51,746 nt of DNA, from positions 1 through 51,746 of the IMG/VR virus record IMGVR_UViG_3300032087_004198. One strand, given 5' to 3'. Position 1 is the stretch's first letter; every line of letters starts with the position of its first letter. The notes beneath the pieces were generated by a model that had not been told where the DNA came from, ran no database searches, and was given only the letters and a program-made list of their open reading frames with translations. Source of the stretch: a virus. Of the stretch, positions 1 through 41,578 are shown piece after piece. A program made the translations under genes and the position numbers.

Positions 1-1727
1 TTGTGACCCATGTATATTCCACCGATAGACGTACACTCTTCAGGGGAAACTTCGTCTGTGCATAAACCATCAGACAAACAACATGCGCCATACTTCGTTA
101 GTGAATCACAGCAGTTGATTGATGAACAATATGTATTCACACCCTGAAAAATAGTGTAGAACAAGTCAGACTGTTCACCTAACTCAAAGCACTCGTTTGC
201 TGATAGGTTGTTTGTGCATGTATAGTAATTTCCAGAGATTAATTCAAACTGACAGCACGCTCCCACCAAACCAAAATCATCATCACAAACATCGGGATCA
301 CATGGATATTTTTCAGAGTCACACGGAACCAATGCTCTAAAGTTTCCTCCGAATCGATCACAGAATTCTCTGGTTACGGGGATTCCGCTGGAGTTAGTGC
401 TATCGATACAAAGCGTTTGTTCGTTATCATGATTTTTATTTAAACAACATGAACCTTCTACATCACTTAAGTTGCAAGGTGTTTCAGAGCATGGTGTATC
501 AGGATAGAACTCGAAACTGCCTCCTCTATCCTCACACTCTGTCTCACTAATAAAGTCATCGCAAGTAAATGATACACTATAATCGCAACAAGCACCGTAA
601 CTGATGAGATTTGATTTATCAGTATTATAGTTTTTACCTGCAATCGAACACAACCAACTCGCACCCTCGTCGTAGGATAAACAGTTTACGATGTTCACCC
701 CAGTAGAGAATGTGTTATTGTTAGGATCAAAATAGAATTTATTACTAAATGATATTCCTGCTGGTCCATTTTTGATAATGAGTGTTGCTAAGTTAGCCTC
801 ACCATAATCAGCAGTTGATCCAAACCGTTTTGTTCTTTGTGTCTCCCAGTGCGGAGCGATACTAATTGGATCTTTAGCATGTTTTGTAAACACTATGTCA
901 TTCAAAGTAAACGGAGCATATACCAGATGAACAGACCCTTGCTCAGTATTAATATTAAATGGGTCTTTTTGCACACCGTCAATTTCATTTCCATGCACAT
1001 GGTAGAAGTTACTACTGTTATAAAGTTTTGGTGATATTGTACCCCAAGTAAGTCCACCGTCACCTGCATCAGGCGGGACAATACTACCTTGATCTGTAAA
1101 CGTTAGTCCATAAGCATCTTTAACACTTTTCTGATCGATAAGGTATGCGAGTTCACCGACTGACTGACCCAATACCGTTCCATAAAGTTTTGAAGCCTGT
1201 GGACCAGATATACCAATGACTGAGTAAGTAGGACCAGTTCCTATTTTTACTAAATCGCTATAGAATACTAAATCACCACTTACACCAAGTCTTCTAAACG
1301 TAAGTGTTGATCCGCATACTCCAAAGTAAGGAGCATTAGCGTGACCAATGATTGTTCCTGTTGTAATACCATTGAAGATACCTGTTGTTCCCACAGAGGT
1401 ATTTAAAATATTTGGAAATGCTCCAACGACTGGTCCTGCTTGACCAGTAAGACCTCTAGGTGCTGCGGTAACTTCGTTTCCTGCTCCATCAGAGAAACGT
1501 AAAACATAGTAACCAAAGGCAGGTTTACTCGGATCGTTTTGAAAGTATGTTCCGATTAATTCTGAACCTGTCACACCAATCGGTCCTATAGGACCAGTCG
1601 CACCCGTAGAACTTGATGCACCAGCAACACCGCCTGTTCCTGTAACTACAGAGTTATTTGGTCCCGTTGGACCAGTGTACGGACGTATGTGACTTGTGCT
1701 AAATGATGCGGTGTAACCTAGTGCCAT
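1..1727 (-). CDS. Partial giant collagen-like and Cys-rich virion protein (C-terminus outside window)
   Basis: The frame is open from an ATG at 1727 to the left edge (575 codons, no stop). The N-terminus starts MALGYTASFS and has short collagen-like Gly-X-Y runs (GPTGP, GATGPIGPIGVTG). A beta-rich region follows, ending near a GVNIVNCLSYDEGASWLC segment. At least four disulfide-rich repeats then begin at GACC or GSCC (for example GACCDYSVSFTC and GACCLSDGLC). The layout is the same as in the 3771-residue neighbour upstream, so this is a paralogue and most likely a fibre or adhesin of the virion. It lies 24 bases after that gene in the same late operon. The family has no function I can name from sequence. 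The product is certainly longer than seen here. Confidence 0.8.
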   Translation of the reverse strand, partial: MALGYTASFSTSHIRPYTGPTGPNNSVVTGTGGVAGASSSTGATGPIGPIGVTGSELIGTYFQNDPSKPAFGYYVLRFSDGAGNEVTAAPRGLTGQAGPVVGAFPNILNTSVGTTGIFNGITTGTIIGHANAPYFGVCGSTLTFRRLGVSGDLVFYSDLVKIGTGPTYSVIGISGPQASKLYGTVLGQSVGELAYLIDQKSVKDAYGLTFTDQGSIVPPDAGDGGLTWGTISPKLYNSSNFYHVHGNEIDGVQKDPFNINTEQGSVHLVYAPFTLNDIVFTKHAKDPISIAPHWETQRTKRFGSTADYGEANLATLIIKNGPAGISFSNKFYFDPNNNTFSTGVNIVNCLSYDEGASWLCSIAGKNYNTDKSNLISYGACCDYSVSFTCDDFISETECEDRGGSFEFYPDTPCSETPCNLSDVEGSCCLNKNHDNEQTLCIDSTNSSGIPVTREFCDRFGGNFRALVPCDSEKYPCDPDVCDDDFGLVGACCQFELISGNYYTCTNNLSANECFELGEQSDLFYTIFQGVNTYCSSINCCDSLTKYGACCLSDGLCTDEVSPEECTSIGGIYMGH

Positions 1728-1751
1728 ATAGTATCCTCTACTCTATGTAGG

Positions 1752-4700
1752 TTAATAACCGTATCCTCCACCGCTAGGTGGTGACGATGGTGGTGGTGTC
1801 GGTGGTGGAGTAGGAGCAGGAGTATCGACTGGAGCGGTCGTGGAATCTGTTTCTACAACGGTGGATTGACTCATTCTACTTGCGATTCTTTGTGAAAGTT
1901 CTTGCGCACTTTGTATAGAGTATCGTTTCAGATTTAGATTACAGATCCCCGATTGAATGCAGTATTGATCTGATCTATCACATGCAGTGCAATCAGTAGG
2001 CTTATCAGTAATCCATTTACGAGAGGTGTCCCCCCACTGGTCACTATTACAAACACCTCTTGAAACACCGTACACACAATCTAAAACATAATAACGTGAT
2101 GGATCTTGACCCTCTGGGACTTCATAATCGAACGCTTGTCTCTCGAAACAACACGATCCAATCTGACGATCTCTTTCACTACTTTGATAACCCAAAGACT
2201 TTCTCACTTCTGCGATCTTATCTGTCACCTCGCTTGAAACTTCAGTTATAACAATTTGTTGGTCACAAAGTCTGCACTCATCAGGCTTGTTCAGATTCTT
2301 ACAATCCTCAAAACAGTTATCGGGACACTTACTCCAGCGAGTTTCATATTCAGTGATTCGTGAGCATTCAATACGAGAGTTGTAAGAGCATTGACTTAAC
2401 GATCCTGCTGCATAACTTCTATTGTTTCGATCAGTTCTTTCCTTAAAGTATTGACAGCAACAACCTTTTTCTTTTTCTCTACTCGTGATTTCATCTTCAT
2501 CTCTATCTCTCAAAAGTTCTAAACAAGACGACTCAATATTTTTGTATCTATTCGTCATCGCATTAATCGATTGAGAAAGTGGAGTTGTATCAATCGTTGT
2601 TGCTGAACTTTCAACACACGCATTGTTATTAAATTCTCTAATTAAATTATCCACGATTTCTGTGTAATTGTTACACTTACATGTATAGTATCTTCTGAGA
2701 TCAACTTCGGCTGTGTTCATCTTATTTTCACATGCGATTTCTTTGTCGGTTGCATATGTCATGATAAGTTCAATCGCTCTATCGCAAGCGGTCTTAAACA
2801 CTGGATTACTTAGCGGACAATCATCGCATTTTTCTCTGAGAGTTTCACGAAGTTCGTCAACCACAGTTTTTGATGTGAGAGAAAGTTTTGTCGTGATAAT
2901 GCTATCGTCAATTCGAGATCTAAACCTTGTTTCACCCGCACGAACAGTTGATGCTCTTACACCCTGAGGAACATATGTGTATTCATCTTTCTGTGAGTTA
3001 GGTAAGTCTGGTGCGTAGATCCATTCATATCTATCCTTAAACGCAGGTGATGAAGTCTCGTTTTCTAATGAATCATTTTCATATAGTCTAACCACAAGTC
3101 GATGGGTATAGCCATGTTTTGAAGTGCAAATTCCAGGCAGTCTAGGATCACTTAAGAATGAATCTGATAAGTGTAAGCCTGGTGGGGCGCCTGGACAGTT
3201 TCTTCCCCCCGTAGGCTCACCCAAATCAGGATGACAAAGATGACGTTTACCAACTCCGCAGGGATAGTATTCTCTCCACTTAAATCCGCCTGATTTTGCG
3301 TTACAATCAGCGATTGTTGTTACGCTATAATCACATTCACCAATAAGTCCTCCACTCGGAGGTCTGCAACATGCGTAAGCAGTTGGAGTAGAGCAACCAC
3401 CAGCGTCAACGTCATAACCAGCAGCGACAGCGTTATCATAGTGAGGCACGCCAGGTCTAAACTTCTTAGGAACCCCACGCAAGTTTCTACCAGTAATAGA
3501 ACCGTAGGTTCCTTGATAGAAGTTGGTGTTTGTTACATAAGTAGATCCGCAATCTTTACGATCAGGTGATGTATTATCACATGGAGATTCAAGTCTACTC
3601 TTACCCTGAGCGCCTGATCCTGCACCAAACGAGCCAGGTCGAATCAATCCACCCCAATCCTCAGCATCCGCACCACCATTAATGATGGAGTTATTCACAT
3701 AACCTAACTGACACATTTCACATGTCAATGGTGCTTGAATACCAGACCACGGTATACCAAAGTTACTAATACCAAATTTATCATTCTGTCTCACAGTATC
3801 GTATTGAACAAAACCACCACTACAGAATCCTGGCAGGTTTGGTATTTTTGTATCAGGTGTTAACTCCACGTTACCTGACTCTAAAGCATACTCAGAACTT
3901 ACATCTATAAAACCTCTAGACGCAGTTGCATTACCACCACCTAATGTCGGTTCGAGACATCCAAGTGACTCTTGATAACGTGGGTCTTCTCCTGCATTCC
4001 AAACATAATTTTCATCCATCATGCCTGGACATGTTACTTTGTCGAGACAGAACTTAACAGTGCTAGTCCACACTTGATTTATAGGATCATAAATATCTAA
4101 GGCTTTTTTATACGCTGGACTGTCAAAACCACAAGACCATCCGACCAACATGGGTCCGAGTGGAACTGGAGGAGTTTCACTCTCCGACAAACCTCTAGAA
4201 AGTGGGTGAACATCTGCTCCATACTGATTGAAGCCTTGACCCGCTGGACATCTAGTAGCGACCTCTTCGAAGTATTCATTTAATTCTGTCGGAAGATCAA
4301 ACGGGACATAAGGCGCACATCTGCAATCTATGGACTCAAACGGAATACCGCCTGGTCCAGCAAACGATCTTCTCGTTTTAATATATGAATGATAATCACA
4401 ATACGGATACTGCTCTGGTAATCTCCAACTACCGTAGTCAGCGTCAACATTCGGTCCTGCAAAGGATTCAGTATCGTTAGATCCATCTCCAATCGGTATG
4501 TAATTCAATTCAGTGCCAGGAATCGTTCCGCCTGGTCCTGCTGGTCCATCGGTTTCCATGTTATCTAGACCATCTTTATACCCGTGTCTGGTCGTAATCC
4601 AAGCAGGATGTTTTCTATCACCACCACCGTCAAAACCAAGTATGTTCGACTTACCAAGATAAGGTAAATTGTCATCATATATTCCATCAAGATTACCTGC

Positions 4701-7700
4701 GATGTAATTATAATTACCCTGATAGATCTTATATCTTGAGTAACCACCATTTTCAAGATCTATAAATGTAGGTTCAAGACCATGCTGCGGTGGTCCAGGC
4801 CATCCTGAGTATCCGAGGTTGATACAGCACATATCGGTTTTATAAATTTCACCAGAGATATGATCCATCTCTGAATCAATGTCATCTCTGTCGATAATAT
4901 CAGCATCGCTCACAGATGGATATAAACAATCGCTACAGTCTGCGTTATTTGCATATGCGTTTTGAACATCCGTAGCACCGACATTTTCAAGTGGTCGCAA
5001 CCATGCAGAATTGAATTCATAGTAAGCGAAGAACTTACCTTCACGCTGACTTGCATAATCGTTTAAACGAATTTGACATTCTTGAACACCTAGATAAGTG
5101 TCAGGATCTGTTAAGTCACAAGTATAGGTTTCAACCAATTGACTTACAATATCTGCTCCATCGGGAGAGATAATTTGTTTGATGTAGCAATTACCACACA
5201 TATCAGCGTTTGTGTAATCTATTTCGCATGGATCAATAGATCCCAAAACACCCGTTGATGAAGATGCGGCGAATCCTTGTGATCCAGCGAATCCTTGCGA
5301 TCCAGGCCCACCAGTTATCACTTGACATGGGGGACGAGGTGGGACTGCTCCTCCACCACACTCTTGTTGATCGGATTCTTCACCTTCACTATCTGATCCT
5401 GACGGTGCGCATGTTCCTTGACCTCCACCACCTGCTGCTGGCTGATTACCTACCTCTGTAGTCTCTGAGGAAACATCAGAGAATCCACCGCCTGGATTTG
5501 AACCACCATTACATTGTCCTGAGCCACCTCCTGCTTGTCCACCAGCACCACCACCACCAAGAATACCGTTACCACCACCTCCTGATACACGGCAGTGTCT
5601 ACCGCTACACTCTCCCAGACTAACCTTCCACGCTGTTCCAGCCGCCTGTTCGCAACCGCCCCATCCGATGAACATTGGTGGAAGTGGTCCCTGACCGCCT
5701 GGACCATAACCTTGCTCAAGTCGAATTGCAATCTCTTGATTTACATCAGTGGGCGGAGGCTGGATGAGGTGAGAGTTTACCTGCTTTGCGTCTAGTCTTA
5801 ATGGACACGATGGATAAAGATATGGAACACAAACTTTATGCTCACCTCCTTCTTCAATCGCACCATTCCGAGGTTCATCATCTGGGGAGTTAATGGGATC
5901 CCTCGACGTACCAACGCATCCACTATCCCACAAAATCCATTCATCACGAACAGGATATCCTAATATTCTCTCCGCTGCATCAGATATTAAGTAGAATGTA
6001 TCTTCATTCTCAGAATTCGGCGGTAATGATGCTGCATTCGCACGTTCGTTAGATATTTGTGATCGATGAATACCGTTTAACCAACTGCTAAATCGATCAA
6101 CTCCAATGGTTGATTTATCCCATGCGACCTCCTGTGGGTAATATAATACGTCGTCATAGGAACGACCACCACAAAGATTTTGATTTATAAGATCCATGTA
6201 ATCATTAATTCTACTCATAGCCTCATCATATGTTCTTGCACCTTTAGGCCATGGGAATTGAACAACCATCAAATGATCCCTAACATAGTAGGATTCATAA
6301 TGAATTTTAAACCGTCTTGCATAAGATGGATTCAACGCTTTTCTAATCTCTGCTGATGCTTGGTTTGGTATCTCCCACGAGTTAGTTCCATTGAACCATT
6401 CTCCCTCGTACAGTCCTTTGTATGGAGTGCATCGATAAGCAAATTGATTTAAACTAATGCTCTCTTTACCAAAGAATGCAGAGTGATAAACAGGATTGGT
6501 TTCACCTTCTATATCTGAACTTGGATTGTTTGATCTGTCATATGCATCACCTTTCCAATGACCATAAATTGGAGATATGGCAGATGTAGGACTATCCCAC
6601 CATGAGTTACCCTCTGTATCAAGTCCAGAGAACTCATTCGTAAACTGATGTAATGGACCAATGGTATACTCAGGTCGAGTGCTATTTAGATATTGTCTGT
6701 CAATCGGATTTTCTGGAATACTCGACTGAGGATTAACAGGAATCATAAATTTACTTGGGTAATTTATCTCCGCATATTCTTTATCGTTGCTTGGAATTGC
6801 TCCGACGTAACCCTCTGAATCTTCCAACACACCATTATCAAAAGATACGCTACCCTTCAAACCGATATCATAACCACCCCATTCACAACAATGAGGACTA
6901 CAAAGTTCTGGTTTCTCCATGCAATCATTAAATGATGTGACGTACGGTTTACCCTTGTAGTCATTACTCTCTTGAGCAGCGAGTCCACCACCCCCAACCA
7001 CTTGATCAAACTCTGCCCAAGAACATGGACAACCTTGACCTGCACTTGGTAATGGACTTGAAACACCTGCCCCATTAGTCCAATCTATAAGTTCAAACCA
7101 AGCATCTTGATCCCACATCGAAGTATTATCGTCATACAAAACACCTCTAATGATATCACTTTGATTCGTAATTGTTTGCCTATAGTCTGTGTAGTTAACA
7201 AGTAAAGCACCTGCGTTTGCTGAGTTTGAACCAAAGCAACCACTGATGTTTGGGTCGCCTGGACAACCACATGAGGTCAGTGGATTTTCTTCAATACCCT
7301 GAAATCCACCTATGTAACACCTATCCATTGTTACAGGATTAAATTCGTCAGGGAAGCCAGGTAAATCTAAAATATATCCAGTCGCCTCTACAACTTTCGG
7401 ACAAAATACGTTTGAACATGCGTTTATTTCAACGTATCGGAGCGGTGGTGATATGCTGGCTGGATCATATGTATGAATATAATCTCTACAACCAGTTGTA
7501 TCAACGGGTTGGGCTCCAGAGTTCGCACTACCGATAGGAACTCTGATTGTTTTACATCCTGCACCAGCATCATATACTCCTGTTAGTAAATGATTTGTGA
7601 CATTAGAAGAAGAATCATCCTCAGGAACAGGCTCGCCTGGATCAAGTTTTCTGATGAGGCAACCACCTATTGGTCGTTGACCAGTATTGGATTCTTCGAA

Positions 7701-10700
7701 GCATGTAATAATCCATTGATCATCATTTGCTCTACAAACACCAAGAATTGTATTATCGTTATATTGATCTGTGGTCGCTTTTTCACCACCACCTCTACAT
7801 CTTCCTTGAGGATTTTGTAAAGCGGTTTGACAGAATAAATCTTTATCTGGATCTTCAGGATCACAAGATATGTTAACTTCATCTCCACTAAACACAGCAT
7901 CTTTCACACAGTCAAGACACCAATAGTCGTTGATACCATCGTCATTGTCATCACAACAGTTCAATCCGTCTTCAACTTGACCACCGCAACAATTAGCAGA
8001 GGGACCGTGTTCACCCGCTGGTAAACCATGACCACAAGGATCTTGTGATGAATCCTCGGACCAACTTTGGAACGCTGCGTTTATATCAATAGCACGTTGA
8101 ATACAATCATTCTCTGTAATTCCATTCGTGCATTCACTAAAATTACATGAATCAACTACATTTCCGAGACAACACCTACCAACAGGATCGCCAGGAATAT
8201 TACATGGATTACCAGCACATGTCGCAGGATATGGTGTAAACACATCATTTACACCTGTGCAGTCACTCTGTGGAACAACATCACAAGATTCACATGCACC
8301 ACCGTTGTTGCAGTTTCTACAGCATCTACCCACATCAGGTATACATGGGTTTTCATTACAAAGAGTATTTGGTTTAAAGTCACCACCAACAGAAATACAC
8401 TCAGTCTGTGTTCTGTTTTGACAATCAAAGAATCCATTTCCAAGATCGACACAGCAAGCATAAGTAGGTGCATAACAACCAGCCTGTTCACAATCTTGAA
8501 TACCAACCGCTCCACCCTGACCACCTTCGGATGCAGGACCGTACCATGTTCCTCCAGTAGAGATACCATTAGTCAGTGCTTCACATTCAGATTTTGTTCT
8601 TTGGGTACACTCTCCAAAATCAATTTCTCCATTACCGTTCGCATCAAAACAACACGCATATCTGTCTAAATCAAAGTTACAAATTCCTTCGAGTAGTTCT
8701 CCGTTTGTGTCATTCCAAGATCCACCAATATTATCACATTCACATTTAGGTATGAGTGAAGATGTTCGTGTTGAGTTTTGACAACATGTTCCTCTTTCGA
8801 GTGATCGATCAAAGTAATTAAAGTTTGAATCATAGTTCTCAAGAAGTGATGAGCAACTGTAGAAGAAAGGATTGATTCCGTAAGGTGTGCTTGTTCTCAA
8901 TTGACATGTTGCACCAGTAATAAGATATTGGAAATTACCAATTGAACTTAACCAACCATCAAATCCGATAACACCAAAATTATCACCCTTCCATCTTTTT
9001 GGAGTTATAGGTGTGTCATCTGCAACAGGGGGAGAAAAAGGCCATCTACTATTTCGATGAAGACAAGAATACTGGTTTTGCGTTTCGTTGCATGAACCAC
9101 AAGAGCAACACGGTCCCGTAGGTAATGCTGTTGAACAAACAACATTACCTTCTTGAATTCCATCAATCGCATCTCCACCGTCAGGCTCAGTCACGATTGG
9201 ATCACTAGCAGTTCCTAGTATTGGAGAGCAGCCTGGTGTAAACTTACCAACGTACATAATTCGGAAACCACCGATATTATAATAATTACCCTCAACGAAT
9301 GATTGATTTGCTTCGTTTTGTATATCGAACAGTCTAAGTGTAAATAACGCACTCGCGTTCACATCTTTTTGCTCATTCAATCCATCCTGTAATATGTGAC
9401 CTTTATATGATCTAACACTACCCACATCACCTGTCTCGATGTCTTGATAGAATATTTCATTAGTTGACATATTACCCTTCGACACAGAAGAGGACCAAAT
9501 ATTACCTTGTAAGAATGAAGTATTATTAGCGATCAATCCAAATCGTTTTCTTTGCAGTGCAAAGAAGTGAAGTTCTTCTTTCGATGGAACATAAAAATTA
9601 TTTCCAGATCCAATGGGTTTCACTAGTCCTGAGGGATCTACAGCATGACCAGGCGGAGTGTTGTGTTGTAATACAACATCATATACTTCATTAACTTGTT
9701 GTAGTTTCTTCCACAAATTATTTTGTTCATTCGTTGGATCATAACGATCTGTGATTGATACGATTGATGGGTAAAGACCTCCAGACGCTAAATAACCGTT
9801 TGCAATTCGTCCTTCACTTTGCACGTTGTCCCAGTAACCTTCTAAAACACCACCAAAATATTCAGTTGCTGGTGTTTCTGGACTATTACTTCCTGATGAA
9901 ATTAATCCAACGTAATTTAGCGGACCTGCTTTTGTTTGAACTGTAGAACCATATCCCCAGTCCCACTCTGCTTCTGCACCATCTGGATCAACATTATAAT
10001 CAAACGACCAATACCAACCATGAGTATTATAGTAACCATCATTTTGTCGTGTCACTGCATGAATGACTTGTTCTGGTGCTTCCGTTGCAAAATCTAAACC
10101 ACCCCAATAGTAAGGACCATCATCGAAAACTTGCTCTGCAACAGGATCACCTTCGACGTTAAACATAAACATATGCCAAGAGGTTCTATTTTCAATCTCA
10201 GGACAGTTGCTTTGGGTGCAATCAGGATCACAACCACCAATAAGTGTATGACATGTATCGCCTGGATAGAACTGACAATTAGAACAAAGAATACTTTCTT
10301 GATCTGGTGGTCCGAAAGTATCGTTTCTTAACGAACATTCAAGTTGAGTGATTCCGTGTACGCAACCACATCCATCGCAACAACATGCTCCAGTTGGTAA
10401 ATCACCATCATGCTCGCAGCAGTCAATATCAAAGTCAGTGCAATTTTTACCAACACCTTGGAATACACCACCTTCTTCATAACATTGTGTAGGACCATAA
10501 TCATCACGACACACTTGACCGAAACAACACGGACCCCTCAGTTGATCGCAGCAGTCTCCTGACCAATCAAAATCAGGATCGGGAACTCCGCACAATGTAC
10601 CGTCTCCTTGATACTCACCGTTGAGAGCATCGCACTCTGCACTATCTGTGTAAACACAAACACCAGACAAACAACAAGCACCTTTACCTGTGCAGTCAAT

Positions 10701-13067: not shown

Positions 13068-13079
13068 TGTGTCCTCTCG

Positions 13080-14216: not shown

Positions 14217-14225
14217 AGCCTATCC

Positions 14226-15593: not shown

Positions 15594-15596
15594 TTA

Positions 15597-18500: not shown

Positions 18501-18920
18501 GTTCACTCGAAGAGACTTGCCAACACTAACATTATTACAGAACGTAGTATGTGTTCTTAAAACATTACCGCTAAACGCAAATGCAAGCGTACCACCAGTG
18601 GAACTGGCGTGCATCATGCCGTCACCAGCAGTCGCACCGTAAACTTTCAGCCTATTTAATTTACCGATGATGTCAGTATTTGTTCGAACTCTCCAAGTTT
18701 CAAAGGTATCGTTTAGTGATACGTCTGGAATCTTATAGTTTCGGAAAGCAGTTGATAGCGTGTAACCTTGAGCGCCACTATTTGTAAAATCAAATTCGTG
18801 TTTACCATACTCACTTGGGAAAATGCTCCCCGTACCACCAGGCAGCGCCCACGGTGCAGTGTATCCTGCGATACCGTAAGCGTAAGTGTAACCTGTGCAA
18901 CCTCCGAAGTAACCTGACAT
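15597..18920 (-). CDS. Large tail fibre / virion structural protein (1107 aa)
   Basis: The N-terminus is Gly/Tyr/Thr-rich (GYFGGCTGYTYAYG). Residues about 370-500 and 530-660 hold copies of a small beta module (NHNFKVGNVLRY, SEVVGMVSN, VVGLVSKPV). The C-terminal third begins NQLINGSFDFWQRG and continues ADRWIRVSQ, a carbohydrate-binding-like jelly-roll signature common at the ends of phage tail fibres. It includes YKVEQRIPDV and ends with KLEQGNVST-type strands. Together these features indicate a long fibre with a possible glycan-binding tip. The gene lies between the DUF4815 protein and the collar fibre, all minus-strand with gaps of about 10 bases. The exact receptor role is inferred. Confidence 0.85.
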   Translation of the reverse strand: MSGYFGGCTGYTYAYGIAGYTAPWALPGGTGSIFPSEYGKHEFDFTNSGAQGYTLSTAFRNYKIPDVSLNDTFETWRVRTNTDIIGKLNRLKVYGATAGDGMMHASSTGGTLAFAFSGNVLRTHTTFCNNVSVGKSLRVNGKLIGGADLGEDGNSTQGFTIGYNFDQNILVLNNQDDHVGCDFAGFIVGGGVTGPNPDSVFKSPNGGPGADHFVFDRPYMLHKDNMWRTKEGLWLEGKLNHSSIYSGRTLAGSTGEDYPFAPYGYTGCGLTYSTSAEGGVSRVFFGPTLSSNIYLDFDGRNGVYGGTGDAWYTPFGTRATGGKEGALVISNSDGPLVEFDTNYATSDFGVGFTRILRGANSKRINKTNHNFKVGNVLRYRNEGTDVGFTFASAMGYSETHGDSINASEVVGMVSNVPNKDSFDLTFLGEVSTTDTNWKKVIIGGNSLSPGCVYYCSVYGGSQRGKIQKEQPGVVGLVSKPVMIATGVTTGVFLPMTGQVLGQTGCSSSSGGSTDANYGGASGNDATIFSKGFDTSSESFSVGQVVAFDPSRPSGLRLADYTKSGNLSQPLGVVVEVNTTTGLVDIMTGGYLSLRENIVSSTGTYYLGEDGSLSFVPPPKAIKILDAIAPNTFVVNIQNASVNSQADTGAGSYEVCGSDEAAPGQTLNIRSATGSTGYTYDNVLRVNENQLINGSFDFWQRGVGVTAVNGYTGTSHTFFADRWIRVSQTGTGGFFGNNPYTGKSSGTHRVLDYKLKREKFDKKQVKVEGHPNFYSVIKGAITYAGGTNNNEYYKVEQRIPDVTSFAGQVMTASFYAKGSVTGDMHLAWLQNYAGGSTGPTPGATTGGGIFGPSAGVGPTASQKLTPITDFRLGTDWSRYAYSFFVPEVSDADGASGEVFTNLSRGPTAEHYAAISFFTQLTSLPDGTHKNINYGGEVSLAQVKLEQGNVSTFIETKDLDSEFRKVQRFYQHSYDLGDNTGQNTMRTELQPDIRGETFVVTGNFLHVVKFPVSMRAVPTVGIISPTGIVNEGFNRDAGKDMRFTSGTISSLGEMRTTQGNSENLSVFTDRESGLEIRVIRGASKLDSITVHYFAEAELNKDLPDGPVER

Positions 18921-18931
18921 CTATTTCTCCG

Positions 18932-19576: not shown

Positions 19577-19603
19577 GGTTGCTTCCTTACTCTTATATGT
19601 ATA

Positions 19604-21235: not shown

Positions 21236-21236
21236 T

Positions 21237-22652
21237 TTATCCTCCTATTGACCCACAACCCGCAGTCGATTCTGTCGCATTGTTCGGTGAACCTACGTTA
21301 GTATTTATAGCAGACAGAAACAAGAAAGCGCCTAGAGATATGTTTTTCATTTCTGTTGCTGACTGCACCGTGACTGACCACGAATTCGGATGATGGAATA
21401 TTCTGAACCCATTGATACCAATTTGTGCTGCCTCTTCACCCCCAGTAAATCCTGTTCCACCGATACCAGCCCAAGGGTGATCTGCACCGCATATGCCTAA
21501 CGGGAATCCCATAGAGAATCCCTTATTCAATGCACCAAACCCACCTACTTGATGTGCGGTTGTACCAGCCTCGTCTTTATACCACAGTCCACCCGTATCT
21601 TGAAAGTGCTGACTCGTATATGAAATACCTGACGCTGCGACATACGGATTATATCCACATGGGTACAAGTCCGCTCCACTTGCATTATCTCTCAAGTTTG
21701 TAGACGTTGAAAAACGATATGGTGTGTAGTTACCGATGACGGGAATCTCAATCGGGACTGTTGTACCAGTTGTGCCTGGTTGATCAAAGATGTCTGTAAG
21801 AACGTAATTACCCGCGATAAACATACCAGCAGGGTGTAATACTTCTTTTACATAATCCTTATATGAGTCCCAATTAATATCTGTATCGATTAGATAAGAA
21901 TAGTTTTGGTAATACTTGTTGTCATGGATTCTAGAAAATCCACTGATCAATCCCTGTTCATTTCCATAGTAGACACCGCATACTGAGCCTGGTGCAGCAG
22001 GTTTACCAGCAGCATTGAACTCAGAACATGCTTCATAAGTTGCTCCTGCTGGACCAGTGTATCCTGCGGACGCTCCCAGAAACGATCCCTCCGAGCATAC
22101 ATGTAATAATTTTTTAGGATAATCAATCTTTACATCGGTTGCATAAAAAGTCTTGAAGAAAAAGTCATATGCCTCTTCTGTGCTTTTTAATTGGTAAAAG
22201 TTTTTTACATATCTCAAAAAGTTACGAACATTAACCGAGGAGTTTGCAGGGTCGTCAAAGTTTACGACGTTTACGGACTCGCCCTGCTCATCTTGTTTAA
22301 ATGTTTTATTGGGAAGTCCTGTAGCGTAGATGTTTTTAAATATCTTAAGCATCTCATTCGGACACTCATCGATGTCTTTCAGTAATGCTACTCCACCGAT
22401 GCCCTGTTGTAGTTCTAACCATTTATAGAAGAGTGCTACAAACTGAGTAAACTTATCGTATAATTCTGTAACGTGACTAGGTAATCTATCGATAGCATAA
22501 AAATTAAAATCACTTGATGGTTTTGTCTCTTGTAATTCTTCAGAAAACGCAATCTGAGCATCTACAGCCTTCGCCCATGAGTCTAAGAACTCACTAGGTG
22601 ATCGAGCGGTATCTCCGTCCCCAGATGCGCCTCCTTCAAGAAAAAATGTCAT
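21237..22652 (-). CDS. Conserved baseplate-wedge-associated structural protein (471 aa)
   Basis: The N-terminal half is helical: ELYDKFTQFVALFYKWLELQQG, then FLRYVKNFYQLKSTEEAYDFFFKTFY followed by a DVKIDYPKK segment. This block is characteristic of a structural protein that follows gp6 in marine T4-like phages. The C-terminal half is Gly-rich and beta-like with collagen-like scraps (GASAGYTGPAGATYE). The start codon overlaps the gp6 stop (ATGA), implying translational coupling. By gene order it could correspond to gp7 of T4, but T4 gp7 is about twice as long and I see no decisive motif, so no symbol is given. Confidence 0.7.
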   Translation of the reverse strand: MTFFLEGGASGDGDTARSPSEFLDSWAKAVDAQIAFSEELQETKPSSDFNFYAIDRLPSHVTELYDKFTQFVALFYKWLELQQGIGGVALLKDIDECPNEMLKIFKNIYATGLPNKTFKQDEQGESVNVVNFDDPANSSVNVRNFLRYVKNFYQLKSTEEAYDFFFKTFYATDVKIDYPKKLLHVCSEGSFLGASAGYTGPAGATYEACSEFNAAGKPAAPGSVCGVYYGNEQGLISGFSRIHDNKYYQNYSYLIDTDINWDSYKDYVKEVLHPAGMFIAGNYVLTDIFDQPGTTGTTVPIEIPVIGNYTPYRFSTSTNLRDNASGADLYPCGYNPYVAASGISYTSQHFQDTGGLWYKDEAGTTAHQVGGFGALNKGFSMGFPLGICGADHPWAGIGGTGFTGGEEAAQIGINGFRIFHHPNSWSVTVQSATEMKNISLGAFLFLSAINTNVGSPNNATESTAGCGSIGG

Positions 22653-24328
22653 GACGAAAGAACTTCCAAGTCACCGACTTTAGTTGAGAACAAAACCGCT
22701 CCCTGTGCTAAAACAGTATTTGATCTAGGTCTTGCTCTAATCTTAAACTCATCAGTATTTTGAATATCGTTAAGTTGAATCAAACCAGTTTCATAATTTA
22801 CTGATCCTACATTTTTTATAAAAGTTGCATCCTGAGCGGAGAACATTTTTATAATTCCTCTACCATCATCGAAGACGTAAACTAGAGGGAATGACCCGTT
22901 TATATTCGCTAGGAAGTTAGTCGATCTAACTACGCCTGGTAGATTTGTTCTCTGTAACTGGTTACGGAGAGGGATGGTATCAGATATAGAGCCTTCTTCA
23001 ACTGTTCTCTCCATATAAACCTCTAGTGTGTCTCCAATGATCCCATCATCTAAACTTGTTAAACCTACAGAGAATATTGGATAGTTGAATGCAACATCAA
23101 ATGCTCCTCTCTGGTAACCGTTTATGTAATCTACAATATTTGACGTAACAACATCTAGACTTGTACCAGAACGAGTTGCATCCCAGAAAACGTTACCCTC
23201 TATAACTAAGTCTACAGGAATTGGTTCAACGAAAGTAGGAAGTATTGTTACCACTCCCTTATCTTTCATAAGACTCAACACGTTACTTTTTTGTCCAGAG
23301 GTCAATGGACCACCATCTACACCAACAGCACTCACATAAACTCGTCCGTAATTAGGAGGTTGATTTTCCTCACCACCCCACACATTAGCACGAATTCCAG
23401 ATTGACTGATTCCTGCTAAGTGATCGGATGCTGTCACATATCTACCCTGTGTTTGAAAGAACAGTGGGGCGTTCGTACGCACACTTTCAATATCTTCTAC
23501 TTCTGATCCACCCACACCTGCTACAGTGGTTGTGATTACTGATACACCAGATGTATTGCTCACAAACTGAGCGATGTTATTACCATTTGAACCAGCGGTT
23601 TCAAAGTATTCGAATCGAACCAATGCTTGATTGTTAGGTTTTTTACCTACAAAGTTATCACCGAAGTAAACTGCGTACTTGCCTCGTGTGCTTGTTGTTA
23701 AGTAATAAATTTTAGATTCAGCGGTGACACCAGCGATACTGCCTGGTAAGTCCGTAATATTCGTATATTCACTCTCTTGTCCGTTACCATTATCAACATA
23801 AACTCTTAAAGTATTTGTATCAACATTCTGTGACGGAATTTCAAATTTTTGATGATTTATAGATGAATCGTACTGATAGAATCTATCATTTATCTGTTGA
23901 CCTTGATATAACTCAATCTCTGTATCACCCGATACGCCGTATGATCTAACTGGGGTCCACTTTAGTCCACCACCAATGAAGAGATCGCCTGGTTTGAGAT
24001 TTGTTGTTCCTCGCACAATAACTTGCGCCCTTGCACCTTTTGTCGATGCAGGAAGATATGACAAAGGTTTTGCATGGGAAAAAACGGATTCTGCTCTTTG
24101 TGCTGTATCGAGGAACCCTTCGTTCGCAATCATGTTTGCGTAATAACCATAGAGTGTAGAGTTATATGCTAACAAGTCCAGCAGTGCGGACATCGCAGAT
24201 CCCTCGAAGTCATAATCATTGAATATTCCAGAACCTTGTAAATAATTTCCAAGGTCGGTTCTCAATTGACCAAACTCAAGATCTCCTAGTTTAATGAAAG
24301 GGCGATCCCCTTCGTATATCTCAACCAT
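22649..24328 (-). CDS. 6: Baseplate wedge protein gp6
   Basis: Strong resemblance to T4 gp6 (gpJ-like fold): LGDLEFGQLRTDLGNYLQG, then NDYDFEGSAMSALLDLLAYN, and SYLPASTKGARAQVIV. Downstream are YLTTSTRGKYAVYFGDNFVGK and a domain with GYQRGAFDVAFNYPIFSVG. At 559 residues it is a little shorter than T4 gp6 (about 660). gp6 forms the inner ring that ties baseplate wedges together and opens during sheath contraction. The start ATG overlaps the gp25 stop and the end overlaps the next gene by four bases, so all three are coupled. Confidence 0.9.
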   Translation of the reverse strand: MVEIYEGDRPFIKLGDLEFGQLRTDLGNYLQGSGIFNDYDFEGSAMSALLDLLAYNSTLYGYYANMIANEGFLDTAQRAESVFSHAKPLSYLPASTKGARAQVIVRGTTNLKPGDLFIGGGLKWTPVRSYGVSGDTEIELYQGQQINDRFYQYDSSINHQKFEIPSQNVDTNTLRVYVDNGNGQESEYTNITDLPGSIAGVTAESKIYYLTTSTRGKYAVYFGDNFVGKKPNNQALVRFEYFETAGSNGNNIAQFVSNTSGVSVITTTVAGVGGSEVEDIESVRTNAPLFFQTQGRYVTASDHLAGISQSGIRANVWGGEENQPPNYGRVYVSAVGVDGGPLTSGQKSNVLSLMKDKGVVTILPTFVEPIPVDLVIEGNVFWDATRSGTSLDVVTSNIVDYINGYQRGAFDVAFNYPIFSVGLTSLDDGIIGDTLEVYMERTVEEGSISDTIPLRNQLQRTNLPGVVRSTNFLANINGSFPLVYVFDDGRGIIKMFSAQDATFIKNVGSVNYETGLIQLNDIQNTDEFKIRARPRSNTVLAQGAVLFSTKVGDLEVLSS

Positions 24329-24816
24329 TACCCTACCCTCTCTGTGACTATTTTAATATCAACAGTTTCTACTGCTGATGAAGTTACTGATTTTAGACGA
24401 TATAAAATTCTAACGTTTAGTGTATTTTCATCTCTAGTATCTAGAACTGAAACCTCATCAACAATAATTCGTGGTTCAAATAAATCGAGTTGTTCTTTTA
24501 TCTCTTCCTCTAGTTGAAACATACCCACACCAGGCAAGTTAGATTCAAATGGATCAAAAAGAAAATTTCTTACACCTACACCGAAGTTAGTGTTAAATGG
24601 TTTTTCAAATTTGTTTGTAAGCACGATAGTCCTAACAGATTGTCTAATAGAGTCTGAGTCGAACACCCTAAGAACATCACCACTCAAACCCTGACTGACG
24701 TAAAACGGAGACGGTTTGAAAAAGAAGTTTAAGTCAGAATATAGTTTATCCTCAGTTGAACTTTTCGTTGCAACTTCACTACCCGTAAACCCTGAGTTTC
24801 TGACGTATACTGACAT
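24328..24816 (-). CDS. 25: Baseplate wedge protein gp25 (lysozyme-like fold)
   Basis: At 162 residues it matches the gp25 family: DLNFFFKPSP near the start, SIRQSVRTIVLTNKFEKPFN, NFGVGVRNFLFDPFES, then an IKEQLDLFEPRIIVDEVSV segment. The EPR motif conserved in gp25 is present. gp25 joins gp6 and gp53 in the wedge core next to the sheath. A perfect TATAAATA late promoter sits at 24833-24840, with a GAGGAAT ribosome site between it and the start. Confidence 0.92.
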   Translation of the reverse strand: MSVYVRNSGFTGSEVATKSSTEDKLYSDLNFFFKPSPFYVSQGLSGDVLRVFDSDSIRQSVRTIVLTNKFEKPFNTNFGVGVRNFLFDPFESNLPGVGMFQLEEEIKEQLDLFEPRIIVDEVSVLDTRDENTLNVRILYRLKSVTSSAVETVDIKIVTERVG

Positions 24817-24832
24817 GGCTGATTCCTCTACT

Positions 24833-24840
24833 TATTTATA
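24833..24840 (-). promoter_or_regulatory. T4-type late promoter before gp25
   Basis: The minus strand reads TATAAATA exactly, the T4 late (gp55-dependent) -10 element, 16 bases upstream of the gp25 ATG, with AGAGGAAT between. It has no recognisable -35 box, as expected for late promoters. Confidence 0.7.
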
Positions 24841-24843
24841 TTC

Positions 24844-26262
24844 TTAAGATTGAACATATAAACCATCTCTTACACAAGTCATAATATTCGTGTGTCTTCC
24901 TCCCTTTTGGAAAGTATGCTTGATACCAACAATTAACCACTTACCATCTAAAATTGAGTATGCATCCGCACCAGGCTCTCGTCCAGTGATTCCCTCAATA
25001 TTTACTGATGGTGCGTTTTTTAATTCAATAATCATACCAACCTCTAATCCAAAATCGCCTGGAACAGTAATCATTATCTCAGATGATCTTAATTGTGTTT
25101 CCTGTGCTTTTCGCAGCAGTGGAGTATTCAGGGGGGTGTTCCAAAAACGAACGTCTTTACTTGCAACATACTCCAGATACTCTGGATACTTTTCACCATA
25201 GTTTGGGAAGTTGCACTCAGTAACGTATTTAGGAAGAGTTTTTAATATTATATCAGGATCTACACAACCACAAACATCAGATGTAAACCCACCATCTGGC
25301 GGAATGACCAATCCAGTTTCTTCATCTACATCAGCCTCAGCACCGCAGACATATGATCCTGCAACATCTTGGTAGGGAGGTCTAGCATAATGATCCTTCA
25401 CCGTAAAATCAGCAGGAGAGAATGTTACTCCCTGTTGTCCATGATCGATATCCATGAATTCTCTTTTATCGAATAGATCATCGTCTAACCAACCTTCCCA
25501 CCACCATGTGTCTAGATCAGTTCCAACATACTCTTCTCCGAGTCTTTCACGAATTAATTCACATTCAAGTTTTAGATTTTCATTTATCTCAGTTCTTAAA
25601 AATTCACATATTGCTTTTGTATCGTCGCAACCATCCTCACTAATTTCTGTAATAGAACGAGTCTCACCCTCAAGATCTATAAATGTAGGAGGGGGACCAA
25701 AATCTGGTGGTGTAAAGTCCTCTTCATTATTCTCTGCTATTTTTTGTAAAGTATCAGTGATGTAATTTCTATACCTACACTCTCGATAGGCATCTTGAAT
25801 TGATTTTATAAATTTTATTTGCTCTATAAGTTCATTTCTTAGTTCTTCGATTATGCGAAACTGATCTATATCTAAGTCTGTGTATGAATACCACGCATGT
25901 TTTGAATTACCTAAACCAAGATTAGCGGTGTATCGAAAACCATAACTGTCAAAATCATCTGTCAATACAGATGGTTCAGGTATCATAGGGTCGTCAAAAT
26001 CCTCTTCTATAGAAACTGGAGGGTAATCTTCAACATGCTTAGTCTTACCCCAATCTTCTCGAATATCATAAGTTGCTCCTTGGGTTACAAACTTATCTTC
26101 GAGATCGTATCGATTGGTGCTATATTTTACATGCGGGACTCTATAAGATACGGGTTCGAGATCGTAATGACACTCCGCACGAACGGTTTCAAACGGTCGC
26201 TGTCTTTCGAGTGTAACATCATCGAGTCTGGTTTTTGATTCTTCTAATTCTTCGTATCCCAT
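24844..26262 (-). CDS. Baseplate hub-like structural protein (472 aa)
   Basis: The N-terminal two thirds are highly acidic and helical, with no domain I recognise. The C-terminal 110 residues are a compact domain: SSEIMITVPGDFGLEVGMII, then LDGKWLIVGIKHTFQKGGRH and TNIMTCVRDGL. This resembles the C-terminal beta-domain of gpD/gp27-type tail hub proteins (pGd..l.vG..i ... G.w.I..i.H.f). It lies between the 1177-aa Cys-rich protein and gp25. A hub or hub-extension role is inferred. A CATAAATA late-promoter-like sequence overlaps the stop codon of the preceding gene, and AGGAG precedes the start. Confidence 0.6.
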   Translation of the reverse strand: MGYEELEESKTRLDDVTLERQRPFETVRAECHYDLEPVSYRVPHVKYSTNRYDLEDKFVTQGATYDIREDWGKTKHVEDYPPVSIEEDFDDPMIPEPSVLTDDFDSYGFRYTANLGLGNSKHAWYSYTDLDIDQFRIIEELRNELIEQIKFIKSIQDAYRECRYRNYITDTLQKIAENNEEDFTPPDFGPPPTFIDLEGETRSITEISEDGCDDTKAICEFLRTEINENLKLECELIRERLGEEYVGTDLDTWWWEGWLDDDLFDKREFMDIDHGQQGVTFSPADFTVKDHYARPPYQDVAGSYVCGAEADVDEETGLVIPPDGGFTSDVCGCVDPDIILKTLPKYVTECNFPNYGEKYPEYLEYVASKDVRFWNTPLNTPLLRKAQETQLRSSEIMITVPGDFGLEVGMIIELKNAPSVNIEGITGREPGADAYSILDGKWLIVGIKHTFQKGGRHTNIMTCVRDGLYVQS

Positions 26263-26274
26263 AGTTGCTCCTAT

Positions 26275-26282
26275 TTATTTAT
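26275..26282 (-). promoter_or_regulatory. Late-promoter-like element (CATAAATA)
   Basis: The minus strand shows CATAAATA followed by AATAGGAGCAACTATG, so the element overlaps the stop codon of the 1177-aa gene and lies about 12 bases before the next start. It differs from the T4 late consensus only in the first base, which is variable in T4-like phages. Part of it is coding sequence, so the call is moderate. Confidence 0.45.
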
Positions 26283-29200
26283 GGTTCTCTTGGTCGTCCG
26301 CCATTATAGGGATTGCAAATTGATTCTTGACAATCTTCTGGTGGAGCATTCTCGTTTGCTTCGGGATAGTCTCTCCCTCGAACACAATGCGTTCCCCGAT
26401 AGTGTCTCTCTGACAGGTCGATCTGACTTGTCATGTAATCAAATAATCCAAGACCTTCGGGTGATTGGATATCAGTGAATGCTGCAAGTCGTTCTTGATT
26501 TTGACCTCTACACGATGGATATTCATTATCCCAACCATCGGATTGCTGTATGGGCCACCCATCTTCTTCTGATGGTCCTGTGATACCATAGCGATTTAAG
26601 AATACTCTGTTACAACTGTTGGCTAACCACTCTCCCTCATCAAGAGGATAATATTCATTACTTGCCAGAGGTAGATCCTTTGATGGTAATGATGACACAT
26701 AAAATTTTGTAAAGGCAACTTGCTCGTCTAAGTCATAATATAAAGGTTGACCAGTTTCCTCGTCAATAATAGGTTCTCCTTCTTCGTCTGTTATTGAATC
26801 GTATTCGTCTCGTATTTTTTCATACAAATTTCTCAAGACATATTCCCACGGAGGATATACACCTATATCATCACTGTAGTTACCGTGTGTGGGATCAAAG
26901 GAGAAATATATTTGTGCTGGATATGGATTGATCTTACCCGATGGTAATCTTTGTGGACCAAATCTTTCAACTATTTTATCAAACAAGTATTGAGTGATAC
27001 CATCGTTTCTCTCTTCGAAATGATTCCAGTAAAAAGCAGGAGCATCTGGACTTTCTAGTTCTTCTTTGCTTAATTTTTTCCATCCTACAAAAGGCTCACT
27101 GTAACAATTTCTATCCTCTGTGCATAAAGGCTCTAGTTCTACAATCTGACACTCATCTTCGTCAGGACTTACTCCGTTTACGCACTCGATGTCATTCGCT
27201 GTGTAAACATGTTCAAACGGTAAATCAAAACATTGAGGAGGTTTTGGTGGACACGCTCTTGGTAAATCATCTAATCCACTTCCTAATCGACCATCCAAAT
27301 CATTACAGTGTGAAAATCCTACTGGACCATCTGGTGCAGGGGTAACGTCGTTAGGTTCTCCATCGTCACCGATAAATTCATACTCAACACACTTTGCGAT
27401 ACATCTGTGACAATCACATTGACAAGTATCGGGTTCATATTCGTCATCTACACATGGCTTATCCACATCCACTTCGAAACCACAAGTATGATATTCACTA
27501 CACCTCCATCCTGAGATTGGTCCAAAACCGAAACTGTTGTAAAAGGGACTCTGTATAAGATCTATATCTTCTGGTACTACATCACCTCCTACAGAATAAG
27601 GTTGACACGGGCCCTCACCTGCTTCACCATCACAAACTCTATATCGTTCAAACTCATCTCCAACACTCACCTTTCCCTCGTCAAGATACTCCTCTAAATT
27701 ATAGAATCCCTCAGTTGGAAACTTCACAACGTAACTTGGTCTGCATAAACTTCTTGCTAAAAATTTTGCTGGATCTTCCCGTGGATCAACAATCGGAGGT
27801 GGATCAAAAGGATTGAAGACACTTGGATATAAGTCTTCATAGTCGTAAGCACAACAAAATTCTTTTTTCTTTTCTAAGAATGATTTAATATATTCTAAGA
27901 CATACTCATTGACTTGTGTTTGATCTTCGAATACATCCTCTTCGTCTACATCGGAACCTCCTATGTCAATAGGAAAATCAATTCCTAATGACTCAAACAA
28001 TTGTTGCCGATAACTAAAGATTAATTCATTAGTAACAGGATCTAGTATTACAGAAGCGAATATCCCCCCGAAGGAATATGATATAAAATCATCACAAAGG
28101 GGATAGTCTGTTGATGGACAATAAGGTGTCGGATAGAATGCTCTGCTTTTTCTGCAAGCACAACTATCACTACTCCACATTCCTCCTTCGGGGGAATCTA
28201 CCTCATAACTATCGAGACTTATAATCCCACTGCTTAAATCACATAAATCTCCATATGTGTCACTATTTTCGCCTGGAGTTAAATTATCACAATCAATACA
28301 GTCACACATTCTTACGTTATCATTACACTCTCCATTTTTGCAGCATGAACCATAAGGATTGTATGGCTCAGGATCTCCACATACTGACTCCCCGTTTTGA
28401 TGTCGCTCACCACACGGAAGATTTTTATAAACACCTCCAAATCTCCCACAACATGATTCTGGTATTGAATGGGCGCAACGTCCATTTATACAACATGTCC
28501 CACCTAACGATGGATCACCACCCTCTTCTGGGTCGGGTGGATTACAAATACTACTTATGTCGAAACAGTCATAATTTACGCAATCTGAATTGAAATAATC
28601 AAAAATACTTGAAGGCCCCTCAGGTCCAGTATAACAACAATCCCAGTTGTCAGGTTTTAAACAAGGGAGACTCCCTGGCGTTCCACAACCATCCCCGTAA
28701 TCTCCTGGCCATGGGATTGTGTTGCAGTAAGTACCTACCCCTCCATATATCGTTCCACCTTGGTAGTTTTCGGCGGCTAATTGCAATCCTAACGATTCAC
28801 ATCCACTCTGTGACATAACTGAACAATATGTGACATTTTCCGATTCATACTCTGGTTTATAAAACGCACAACACCCGCCTGGACAAACCGTACAATGATC
28901 TCCACCAACTGTCAGACATGGCGCTAGTACGTTGCTTACGTCACAACCTTCTTGTATGGCTGCTGCATATTTCTCCGCATAAGATCTGCTGCATGCCGAT
29001 CCTGAAGCACTAAAATCACAAACATCTTCTTCTTCTTCATCACATCTACAATCTACGTCCTCACATACAGTGTTATCTCCCTGCCATCTACCACCTATAT
29101 CATCACAACTTAATGTTGCTGGGTTTGAGTCAGATTTTGTACGCTCACTACATCCACCCACTGTGCAGCATGCACCATAGATAGGATCTTCGCATCTTTC

Positions 29201-29812
29201 TTGACAAGGATCATCTTCGCACGATAGATCAACATCACAGAAAACATTACAAATCGACTCTGTTTGAGGCTCGTATTCTGGTGGATCTGAGCCTGGGATT
29301 ATCTGCTCAATAAGTTCACCGTCTGGAGTTCTTCTATTTGTTCTTCTTTGATCTCCACAATTAGTGTCTTCTCCCTGAAACTCACCACCTAATTCATTAC
29401 ACTCTAATTCTGACGTATCATCTACGCAAAAGTCAGGAACATTCACTGGACTGTTACAGAAACAACAAGCACCCTCTTCATCGTTTGAAGATTCATCAAT
29501 ACATTCTGAATTACAAACCTCTAAATTCTGTGTGCAAACGTAATCCGTAACTGGTTGAACAAAAACCTCAAGTCCTACACGCACCAAACCCGTTTCTTCA
29601 TCAACAAAATCATTATCGATAAAATATTTTTCAGCGTTAACTTTAGGATGTATTTCATCCTCGTCCTGAAGACAAAACGGTGAACAGGGTGTAGCGTAAT
29701 TTTCTATAATAGGAACATCTGCGACAAGACTGGGAGGAATACCAGTCGGACCATAATGTATAAATGCTGCGACACCAATATCGTCACAACAGCACATGCG
29801 ATGCATACTCAT
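26279..29812 (-). CDS. Cys-rich disulfide-repeat baseplate-region protein (1177 aa)
   Basis: It begins MSMHRMCCCDDIG and contains at least five repeats of the same type as the giant adhesins: GACCFCNSPVN...C...ECNELGGEFQG, GACCTVGGC...SCDDIGGRWQG, GGCCAFYKP, GTCCINGRC and GSCCKNGEC. The rest is acidic and rich in Cys, Pro and Gly. There is no collagen-like head. It sits between the gp27-like hub protein and the hub-like/gp25/gp6 wedge genes, where T4-like cyanophages usually carry gp5 and other hub genes. I see neither lysozyme nor needle motifs. It may decorate the baseplate or hub. Function unknown. Confidence 0.8.
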   Translation of the reverse strand: MSMHRMCCCDDIGVAAFIHYGPTGIPPSLVADVPIIENYATPCSPFCLQDEDEIHPKVNAEKYFIDNDFVDEETGLVRVGLEVFVQPVTDYVCTQNLEVCNSECIDESSNDEEGACCFCNSPVNVPDFCVDDTSELECNELGGEFQGEDTNCGDQRRTNRRTPDGELIEQIIPGSDPPEYEPQTESICNVFCDVDLSCEDDPCQERCEDPIYGACCTVGGCSERTKSDSNPATLSCDDIGGRWQGDNTVCEDVDCRCDEEEEDVCDFSASGSACSRSYAEKYAAAIQEGCDVSNVLAPCLTVGGDHCTVCPGGCCAFYKPEYESENVTYCSVMSQSGCESLGLQLAAENYQGGTIYGGVGTYCNTIPWPGDYGDGCGTPGSLPCLKPDNWDCCYTGPEGPSSIFDYFNSDCVNYDCFDISSICNPPDPEEGGDPSLGGTCCINGRCAHSIPESCCGRFGGVYKNLPCGERHQNGESVCGDPEPYNPYGSCCKNGECNDNVRMCDCIDCDNLTPGENSDTYGDLCDLSSGIISLDSYEVDSPEGGMWSSDSCACRKSRAFYPTPYCPSTDYPLCDDFISYSFGGIFASVILDPVTNELIFSYRQQLFESLGIDFPIDIGGSDVDEEDVFEDQTQVNEYVLEYIKSFLEKKKEFCCAYDYEDLYPSVFNPFDPPPIVDPREDPAKFLARSLCRPSYVVKFPTEGFYNLEEYLDEGKVSVGDEFERYRVCDGEAGEGPCQPYSVGGDVVPEDIDLIQSPFYNSFGFGPISGWRCSEYHTCGFEVDVDKPCVDDEYEPDTCQCDCHRCIAKCVEYEFIGDDGEPNDVTPAPDGPVGFSHCNDLDGRLGSGLDDLPRACPPKPPQCFDLPFEHVYTANDIECVNGVSPDEDECQIVELEPLCTEDRNCYSEPFVGWKKLSKEELESPDAPAFYWNHFEERNDGITQYLFDKIVERFGPQRLPSGKINPYPAQIYFSFDPTHGNYSDDIGVYPPWEYVLRNLYEKIRDEYDSITDEEGEPIIDEETGQPLYYDLDEQVAFTKFYVSSLPSKDLPLASNEYYPLDEGEWLANSCNRVFLNRYGITGPSEEDGWPIQQSDGWDNEYPSCRGQNQERLAAFTDIQSPEGLGLFDYMTSQIDLSERHYRGTHCVRGRDYPEANENAPPEDCQESICNPYNGGRPREP

Positions 29813-32651: not shown

Positions 32652-32659
32652 ATGTTTCC

Positions 32660-41429: not shown

Positions 41430-41502
41430 TAGCGACAGCGGGATTCGAACCCGCACTGGATGGATTTTAAGTCCACTGCCTCTGCCGTTGGGCTATGTCG
41501 CC
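41430..41502 (-). tRNA. tRNA-Leu (UAA) with short variable loop
   Basis: A 73-base cloverleaf: acceptor GGCGACA/TGTCGCT (one G-U), discriminator A, anticodon stem GTGGA/TCCAT with loop CTTAAAA (anticodon TAA), T arm GCGGG-TTCGAAT-CCCGC. The variable loop is only five bases, although bacterial tRNA-Leu normally has a long variable arm. CCA is not encoded. Confidence 0.85.
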
Positions 41503-41506
41503 TGAA

Positions 41507-41578
41507 AGCCAACGACTGGATTCGAACCAGCAACCTGTTCATTACAAGTGAACTGCACTACCGTTGTGCTACGTTGGC
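41507..41578 (-). tRNA. tRNA-Thr (UGU)
   Basis: A 72-base cloverleaf: acceptor GCCAACG/CGTTGGC, anticodon stem GTTCA/TGAAC with loop CTTGTAA (anticodon TGT), T arm GCTGG-TTCGAAT-CCAGT. It is four bases from tRNA-Leu. CCA is not encoded. Confidence 0.92.

Follow-up and report, generated by a model that had tools for sequence, protein, structure and literature searches.

A six-cysteine module in tail-region proteins of an uncultured T4-like virus, with sequence relatives in secreted bacterial proteins and animal iRhoms

What is the Cys-rich repeat that recurs in the tail region of an uncultured virus, which other proteins carry it and how might it serve a virion that is assembled in the cytoplasm? 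These questions are raised by the 51,746-base stretch analysed here (IMG/VR virus record IMGVR_UViG_3300032087_004198; referred to as the window), for which a preliminary description had claimed a shared Cys-rich repeat in three large ORFs. The three ORFs were confirmed at positions 3-1727, 1752-13067 and 26279-29812, all on the minus strand. They encode a tail-fibre-like protein of which 575 aa are present before the frame runs open at the window edge (the partial protein), a protein of 3771 aa with 205 Cys residues (the giant) and a protein of 1177 aa with 87 Cys residues. Their Cys contents are 4.7, 5.4 and 7.4 %, respectively, compared with 0-2.1 % in 12 neighbouring structural proteins.

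A tail operon of T4 type fills the left two-thirds of the window on the minus strand, with genes for a tail tube, a gp26-like hub protein and a gp32-like SSB to its right. On the same strand, the operon includes genes for a gp53-like baseplate wedge (375 aa) and a tail-tube cap (246 aa) at 31524-33400, the gp6-like (559 aa) and gp25-like (162 aa) baseplate wedge genes at 22649-24816 and, upstream of the giant at 13080-18920, three low-Cys tail-fibre genes (378 aa, collagen-like; 455 aa; and 1107 aa, phrog_4492 tail fibre protein), as well as further wedge genes. The gp25-like assignment follows from its position beside gp6, as in S-SSM7 and Melnitz. With gp6, gp25, gp53, tube and cap in the window, and the gp23 major capsid gene in a near-identical contig (L007, record G323), the virus is placed among the T4-like myoviruses. 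The closest relative of this gp23 is that of Pelagibacter phage HTVC008M (59.6 %), followed by those of Methylophilales phage Melnitz and Synechococcus phages, and a T4-type gp23 was found in 7 of 13 module-bearing records checked (G323 and six others). The window shares the gene order gp53-hub...gp25-gp6-...-fibres, as well as collagen-like fibres, with the tail-fibre module of Kyanoviridae and marine T4-like phages (S-SSM7, Melnitz and HTVC008M). However, no Cys-rich module protein was found in the cultured members of this group: tblastn searches of INPHARED phages with the 1177-aa protein, the partial protein, the module consensus, two further viral module proteins and one from Myxococcales returned no relative. 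The four best matches of one of these searches were to a Streptomyces phage portal protein and were attributed to chance.

The repeat was defined as a six-Cys module of about 40 residues with the consensus G-A-CC-x4-5-C-x7-8-C-x3-GG-x-aromatic-x-G-...-C-x4-C. The consensus of the family is TGACCLPDGGTCVELTESECEAAGGTFQGDGTTCDDVPC, with the Cys spacing CC-x4/5-C-x7/8-C-x13-C-x4-C. A strict regular expression for the module matched at 10 places in the three proteins (one being an overlapping double start), compared with about 0.04 expected from residue shuffles, and an iterated profile detected 15 modules above 8 bits, compared with none in 50 shuffles of the same proteins, so that the shared module is real. 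The copy number first proposed for the partial protein (at least 4) was reproduced; those for the giant (about 18) and the 1177-aa protein (at least 5) were too high, as the profile supports 8 copies above 8 bits in the former (11 when weak matches are included) and 3 in the latter. These overcounts arose because most CC pairs, of which the giant has 26, fall outside the module. No Pfam, NCBIfam or PHROG model covers the module or the proteins bearing it, and the concern that the repeats might belong to an already described phage tail domain was thus not borne out by searches of these three collections. NCBIfam/Pfam HMD matches and a match to a filovirus glycoprotein lay far below the cut-off and were dismissed.

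In the partial protein, profile matches are located at 474-599, 285-458, 111-266 and 3-92 (minus strand). This protein has a collagen-like GPTG start and is a paralogue of the giant across about 600 residues, the collagen-like start included. In L007, where it is complete at 957 aa, the next two proteins (990 and 879 aa) are also rich in Cys, showing that the Cys-rich cluster extends past the window edge; another locus, L009, encodes seven Cys-rich proteins ahead of its neck-side genes. The 990-aa protein (L007:5052-8021) contains several copies of a different second Cys repeat, roughly DCxxC-x8-12-C-xDAI-x-K-x-RCYxK...PxC...C.

The giant, for which relatives were found in L008 (40 %) and L009 (32 %), likewise has a collagen-like N-terminus. 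Its modules form three profile-supported clusters on the minus strand, namely three modules at residues 477-619 (11211-11639, with one of them at residues 526-568 and a weak fourth at 11649-11795), two at residues 795-883 (10419-10685) and three at residues 1425-1575 (8343-8795). Canonical modules hold 44 of its 205 Cys residues, the majority thus lying elsewhere in the protein. Between the clusters, residues 985-1300 (9168-10115, minus strand) represent a domain with homologues in L008, L073 and L009 that is tentatively described as Lcl_C/DUF1566-like: no score reached the family cut-off, with a Pfam E-value of 0.024 in only one of four homologues, and an AlphaFold model based on four sequences had a pLDDT of 35. 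Lcl_C/DUF1566 domains occur in receptor-binding and surface proteins. The C-terminus of the giant (window 1752-1850) and a segment of L007 (7930-8021) encode near-identical Pro-rich ends, TPPPSSPPSGGGYGY and TPPPSSPPPSGGGGGGYGGY, on proteins that are otherwise different; these ends perhaps act as a common anchoring or sticky tail.

The Cys-rich proteins other than the 1177-aa protein are encoded after the tail-fibre genes and have collagen-like beginnings as found in phage fibres. The 1177-aa protein, with modules at 29345-29476, 29048-29179 and 28403-28504 (minus strand), is encoded in a different setting. On one side it is flanked by a gene for a 568-aa protein (29816-31522, minus strand) matching positions 34-277 of phrog_350, and on the other by a gene for a 472-aa protein (24844-26262, minus strand), the C-terminus of which matches phrog_350 positions 349-427. 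The N and C parts of phrog_350 (here hubN and hubC) are therefore both present and collinear around the Cys-rich gene, whereas Melnitz encodes phrog_350 as one low-Cys gene (gene 116, 483 aa). The designation of phrog_350 as a hub protein follows its PHROG label and its position, and no relative of it was found in the PDB.

To our reading, the arrangement of this region is best understood from loci retrieved with the hubC part alone, i.e. without use of the module, of which there were 80. Among the 58 loci in which an upstream ORF was present, 29 have a Cys-rich ORF (4 % Cys or more) immediately upstream of hubC, with modules recognized in 20, and in 17 hubN is found next upstream, beyond the Cys-rich ORF. 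Some loci (L292, L294 and L306) encode hubN and a Cys-rich stretch in one ORF, followed by a separate hubC, and in 20 loci hubN and hubC are part of one long low-Cys ORF of 1460-2179 aa. This series, from one ORF through a fusion of hubN with a Cys-rich stretch to three genes, suggests that the Cys-rich protein corresponds to the middle section of a tail-hub protein, encoded separately, and it is from this series that a tail-tip location of the 1177-aa protein is inferred. The split of a hub gene around a Cys-rich gene is reported here as new. The single-ORF hubs of L269, L271, L273, L282, L285, L323 and other loci (1460-2179 aa) have very large low-Cys inserts between their N and C parts, some of which are rich in Tyr, Trp and Arg (e.g. 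L269).

To establish how widely the module is distributed, a family profile built by iteration from the window and its relatives was applied with a cut-off of 12 bits. At least 1062 aligned modules above this cut-off were detected in viral and bacterial loci from two DNA pattern scans, which retrieve loci fitting one strict form of the module; all six Cys residues are present in 614 copies, and the viral loci with a module number at least about 90 (all among the matches listed). Ten genome loci from the pattern scan, nearly all from non-Planctomycetes, had no module by profile and were set aside as chance pattern matches. Phycisphaerae supplied most genome matches (among the matches listed); one genome of this class (3.5 Mb) contains 134 module copies and another (2.0 Mb) contains 58. 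In moderately sized genome samples based on GTDB, the module was found at the same cut-off in 14 of 81 Phycisphaerae genomes and 6 of 119 Planctomycetota genomes, indicative of a strong trait of some Phycisphaerae and not of the phylum at large. None of 120 Pseudomonadota genomes carried it, in a run that included no positive genome, although the same profile does match elsewhere. The module was also observed in a few Myxococcota, Bacteroidota and other genomes. In a Myxococcales contig (L166, 1515-3233), a run of thirteen tandem modules is split across two ORFs by an in-frame TAG.

The bacterial proteins share the module and its spacing with the viral ones and often carry it in tandem. They differ in having signal peptides, tighter tandem spacing and, in Phycisphaerae, dockerin, Cu-oxidase, DNRLRE or GBD_T9SS neighbours. 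Signal-peptide-like N-termini were predicted for 69 of 102 bacterial module ORFs, compared with 1 of 130 viral ones (among the matches listed). The similarity to secreted Planctomycete proteins put forward in the preliminary description is thus substantiated: certain Phycisphaerae encode many copies of the module, and the proteins that bear them have signal peptides. In literature searches on Cys-rich Planctomycete repeats and on Cys-rich T4-like virions, nothing relevant was found.

A relationship extending beyond prokaryotes was revealed by profile searches of the PDB. A profile of 21 viral modules ranked iRhom1 first (E=0.004), and a second profile, built from 73 modules of phages and bacteria with no iRhom included, matched iRhom1 with E=3.7e-7 and iRhom2 with E=2e-4 among all PDB chains, the next matches having E-values of 4 or worse. 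The iRhoms are regulators of TNF and EGFR-ligand shedding. In both iRhom1 (RHBDF1) and iRhom2 (RHBDF2) (PDB 8snl, 9q7y, 9xy4 and 9o58), two CC-C-C...(C-x4-C) copies align with the profile, the second over all six Cys residues and the first over four, i.e. over its first half only, and the matched segments lie inside the iRhom homology domain, with the module at residues 571-606 of chain 8snl_B and 201-236 of chain 9xy4_A. Cryo-EM structures have shown that this extracellular domain is held by eight disulfides, and no similar structure was reported in the PDB or among human AlphaFold models (PMC11248996, PMC12184519, PMC13277793). The phage and bacterial module is thus, at the level of sequence profiles, a relative of the iRhom module, a kinship that is new here; no literature linking the iRhom homology domain to bacteria or phages was found. 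In iRhoms, which are pseudoproteases with seven membrane passes, the modules are part of a 240-aa domain, whereas no Pfam match to a rhomboid-like transmembrane core was obtained in the three window proteins, which are therefore not iRhoms and share only a module with them. Nor is a rhomboid core known from the phage and bacterial module proteins.

Two alternative accounts of this distribution were considered. The similarity to iRhoms might represent convergence of short Cys-spaced motifs, with neither common descent nor a common fold, as the module is short, diverges rapidly and occurs in very different proteins and organisms. Moreover, a Foldseek search of a two-module model against the PDB and BFVD gave chance matches only, with iRhom not among them and with units of ~40 residues being hard for this method. 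Yet iRhoms alone score among the PDB sequences, which are rich in Cys-rich domains, and both copies do so; furthermore, when the non-Cys residues were shuffled with the Cys residues fixed, none of 500 shuffles reached the real score for either iRhom copy, meaning that the match exceeds mere Cys spacing. Convergence is accordingly judged unlikely. The other account, in which the viruses acquired the module by recent gene exchange with a Planctomycete host, for mimicry of or adhesion to its cell surface, draws on the high frequency of the module in some Phycisphaerae and on the 149 of 487 viral modules whose nearest neighbour is bacterial (among the matches listed). The relatives nearest to the window modules, however, are only 42-57 % identical outside the Cys residues and are viral for five of eight modules and bacterial for three (among the matches listed), and the T4-type marker genes have their nearest relatives in Pelagibacter, Methylophilales and cyanobacterial (Synechococcus) phages. 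The exchange with Planctomycete hosts that had been proposed from the window alone is therefore improbable as a recent event, and an old shared pool of modules is more likely.

Structure prediction of two window modules using AlphaFold yielded a mean pLDDT of 83.8 (about 85-95 inside the modules), with each module modelled as a β-hairpin bearing the CC pair, a short helix and a strand. Across the family, Cys residues tend to be lost in pairs: C1 with C4 in three of three cases and C2 with C6 in five of six, while two clean cases pair C3 with C5. We hypothesize that three disulfides within each module (C1-C4, C2-C6 and C3-C5) hold it closed, a scheme kept at this strength because the pair losses are few and the cases partly related and not independent. 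The Cys density had been taken to imply folding outside a reducing cytoplasm; the scarcity of signal peptides among the viral module proteins speaks against this and indicates synthesis in the cytoplasm and oxidation at a later stage, if at all. No sulfhydryl oxidase was detected in 13 related records, in a search run without a positive control, and oxidation after lysis would be the simplest assumption. Weak, sub-threshold thioredoxin-like stretches occur in two viruses that carry the module (G322:46399-46662 and G329:33934-34197), within ORFs of about 480-500 aa, and represent a possible redox helper.

A cytoplasmic origin and the lack of a detected oxidase gene would equally suit Cys clusters that bind zinc or iron in the reducing cytoplasm, in a metallothionein- or knuckle-like manner, in which case the modules would be stabilized by metal and not by disulfides. 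Such a role is hard to reconcile with the presence of the same module in secreted bacterial proteins, its kinship to the disulfide-stapled iRhom domain, the paired Cys losses, which fit disulfides, and alignments without a conserved pattern of His or Asp ligands, and we consider it improbable. Even less credence is given to the suggestion that head-to-tail modules build a modular, extendable adhesive rod. Tandem runs of two to four modules do occur in the window, and long tandem arrays in bacteria, but viral modules are irregularly spaced, with 211 of 400 gaps being 10 aa or shorter compared with 305 of 382 in bacteria (among the matches listed), and other Cys-rich domains lie between them, rendering a regular rod unlikely; the low pTM of the two-module model (0.53) also suggests no fixed packing.

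The explanation favoured here, with a probability of about 0.6 for the whole, is that the six-Cys module defines an undescribed domain family whose members are found in tail proteins of T4-like viruses, in proteins secreted by Phycisphaerae and by a small number of other bacteria and, as two copies, in the animal iRhom homology domain, and that in the viruses it forms three-disulfide knots in host-contacting parts of the tail which become oxidized after release. The module would be placed in two tail parts that meet the host, namely the protein between the hub halves and the large tail-fibre-like proteins encoded after the fibre genes. The module proteins would be made with reduced Cys residues in the cytoplasm and attach to the tail via their non-Cys parts (collagen-like N-termini and hub contacts), after which the Cys residues would oxidize upon release into oxygenated water. 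The product would be knobs of small size, covalently closed and resistant to proteases, that would harden the tail tip and the fibres, display binding surfaces there, or both. The disulfides, the timing of oxidation, the location in the virion and the adhesive or armouring role are inferred; host contact and exposure to the outside would be common to both module sites, and a closed knot that tolerates variable loops suits protection and ligand binding alike.

A bolder proposal, for which we would offer somewhat less than even odds, is that phage tails, Planctomycete secretomes and animal iRhoms share one homologous family, that the 'unprecedented' iRhom domain arose by duplication of a disulfide knot of prokaryotic or phage type, and that in a T4-like clade the tail hub was remodelled into three genes, the central one encoding the Cys-knot protein. 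The module provides a named, testable domain family for thousands of unannotated bacterial and viral repeats, and it offers the iRhom homology domain a prokaryotic relative together with simple single-module models. The gene split around a Cys-rich protein represents an unusual tail-hub arrangement in abundant uncultured T4-like viruses and raises the question of how a virion assembled in the cytoplasm gains what would be hundreds of (putative) disulfides.

Elsewhere in the window, genes for a small heat-shock protein (HSP20; 43751-44173) and a Destabilase-type lysozyme (47954-48508) were observed on the minus strand, and six tRNA genes (Leu, Thr, Asn, Arg, Lys and Ile) are scattered among small ORFs at 41429-45883.
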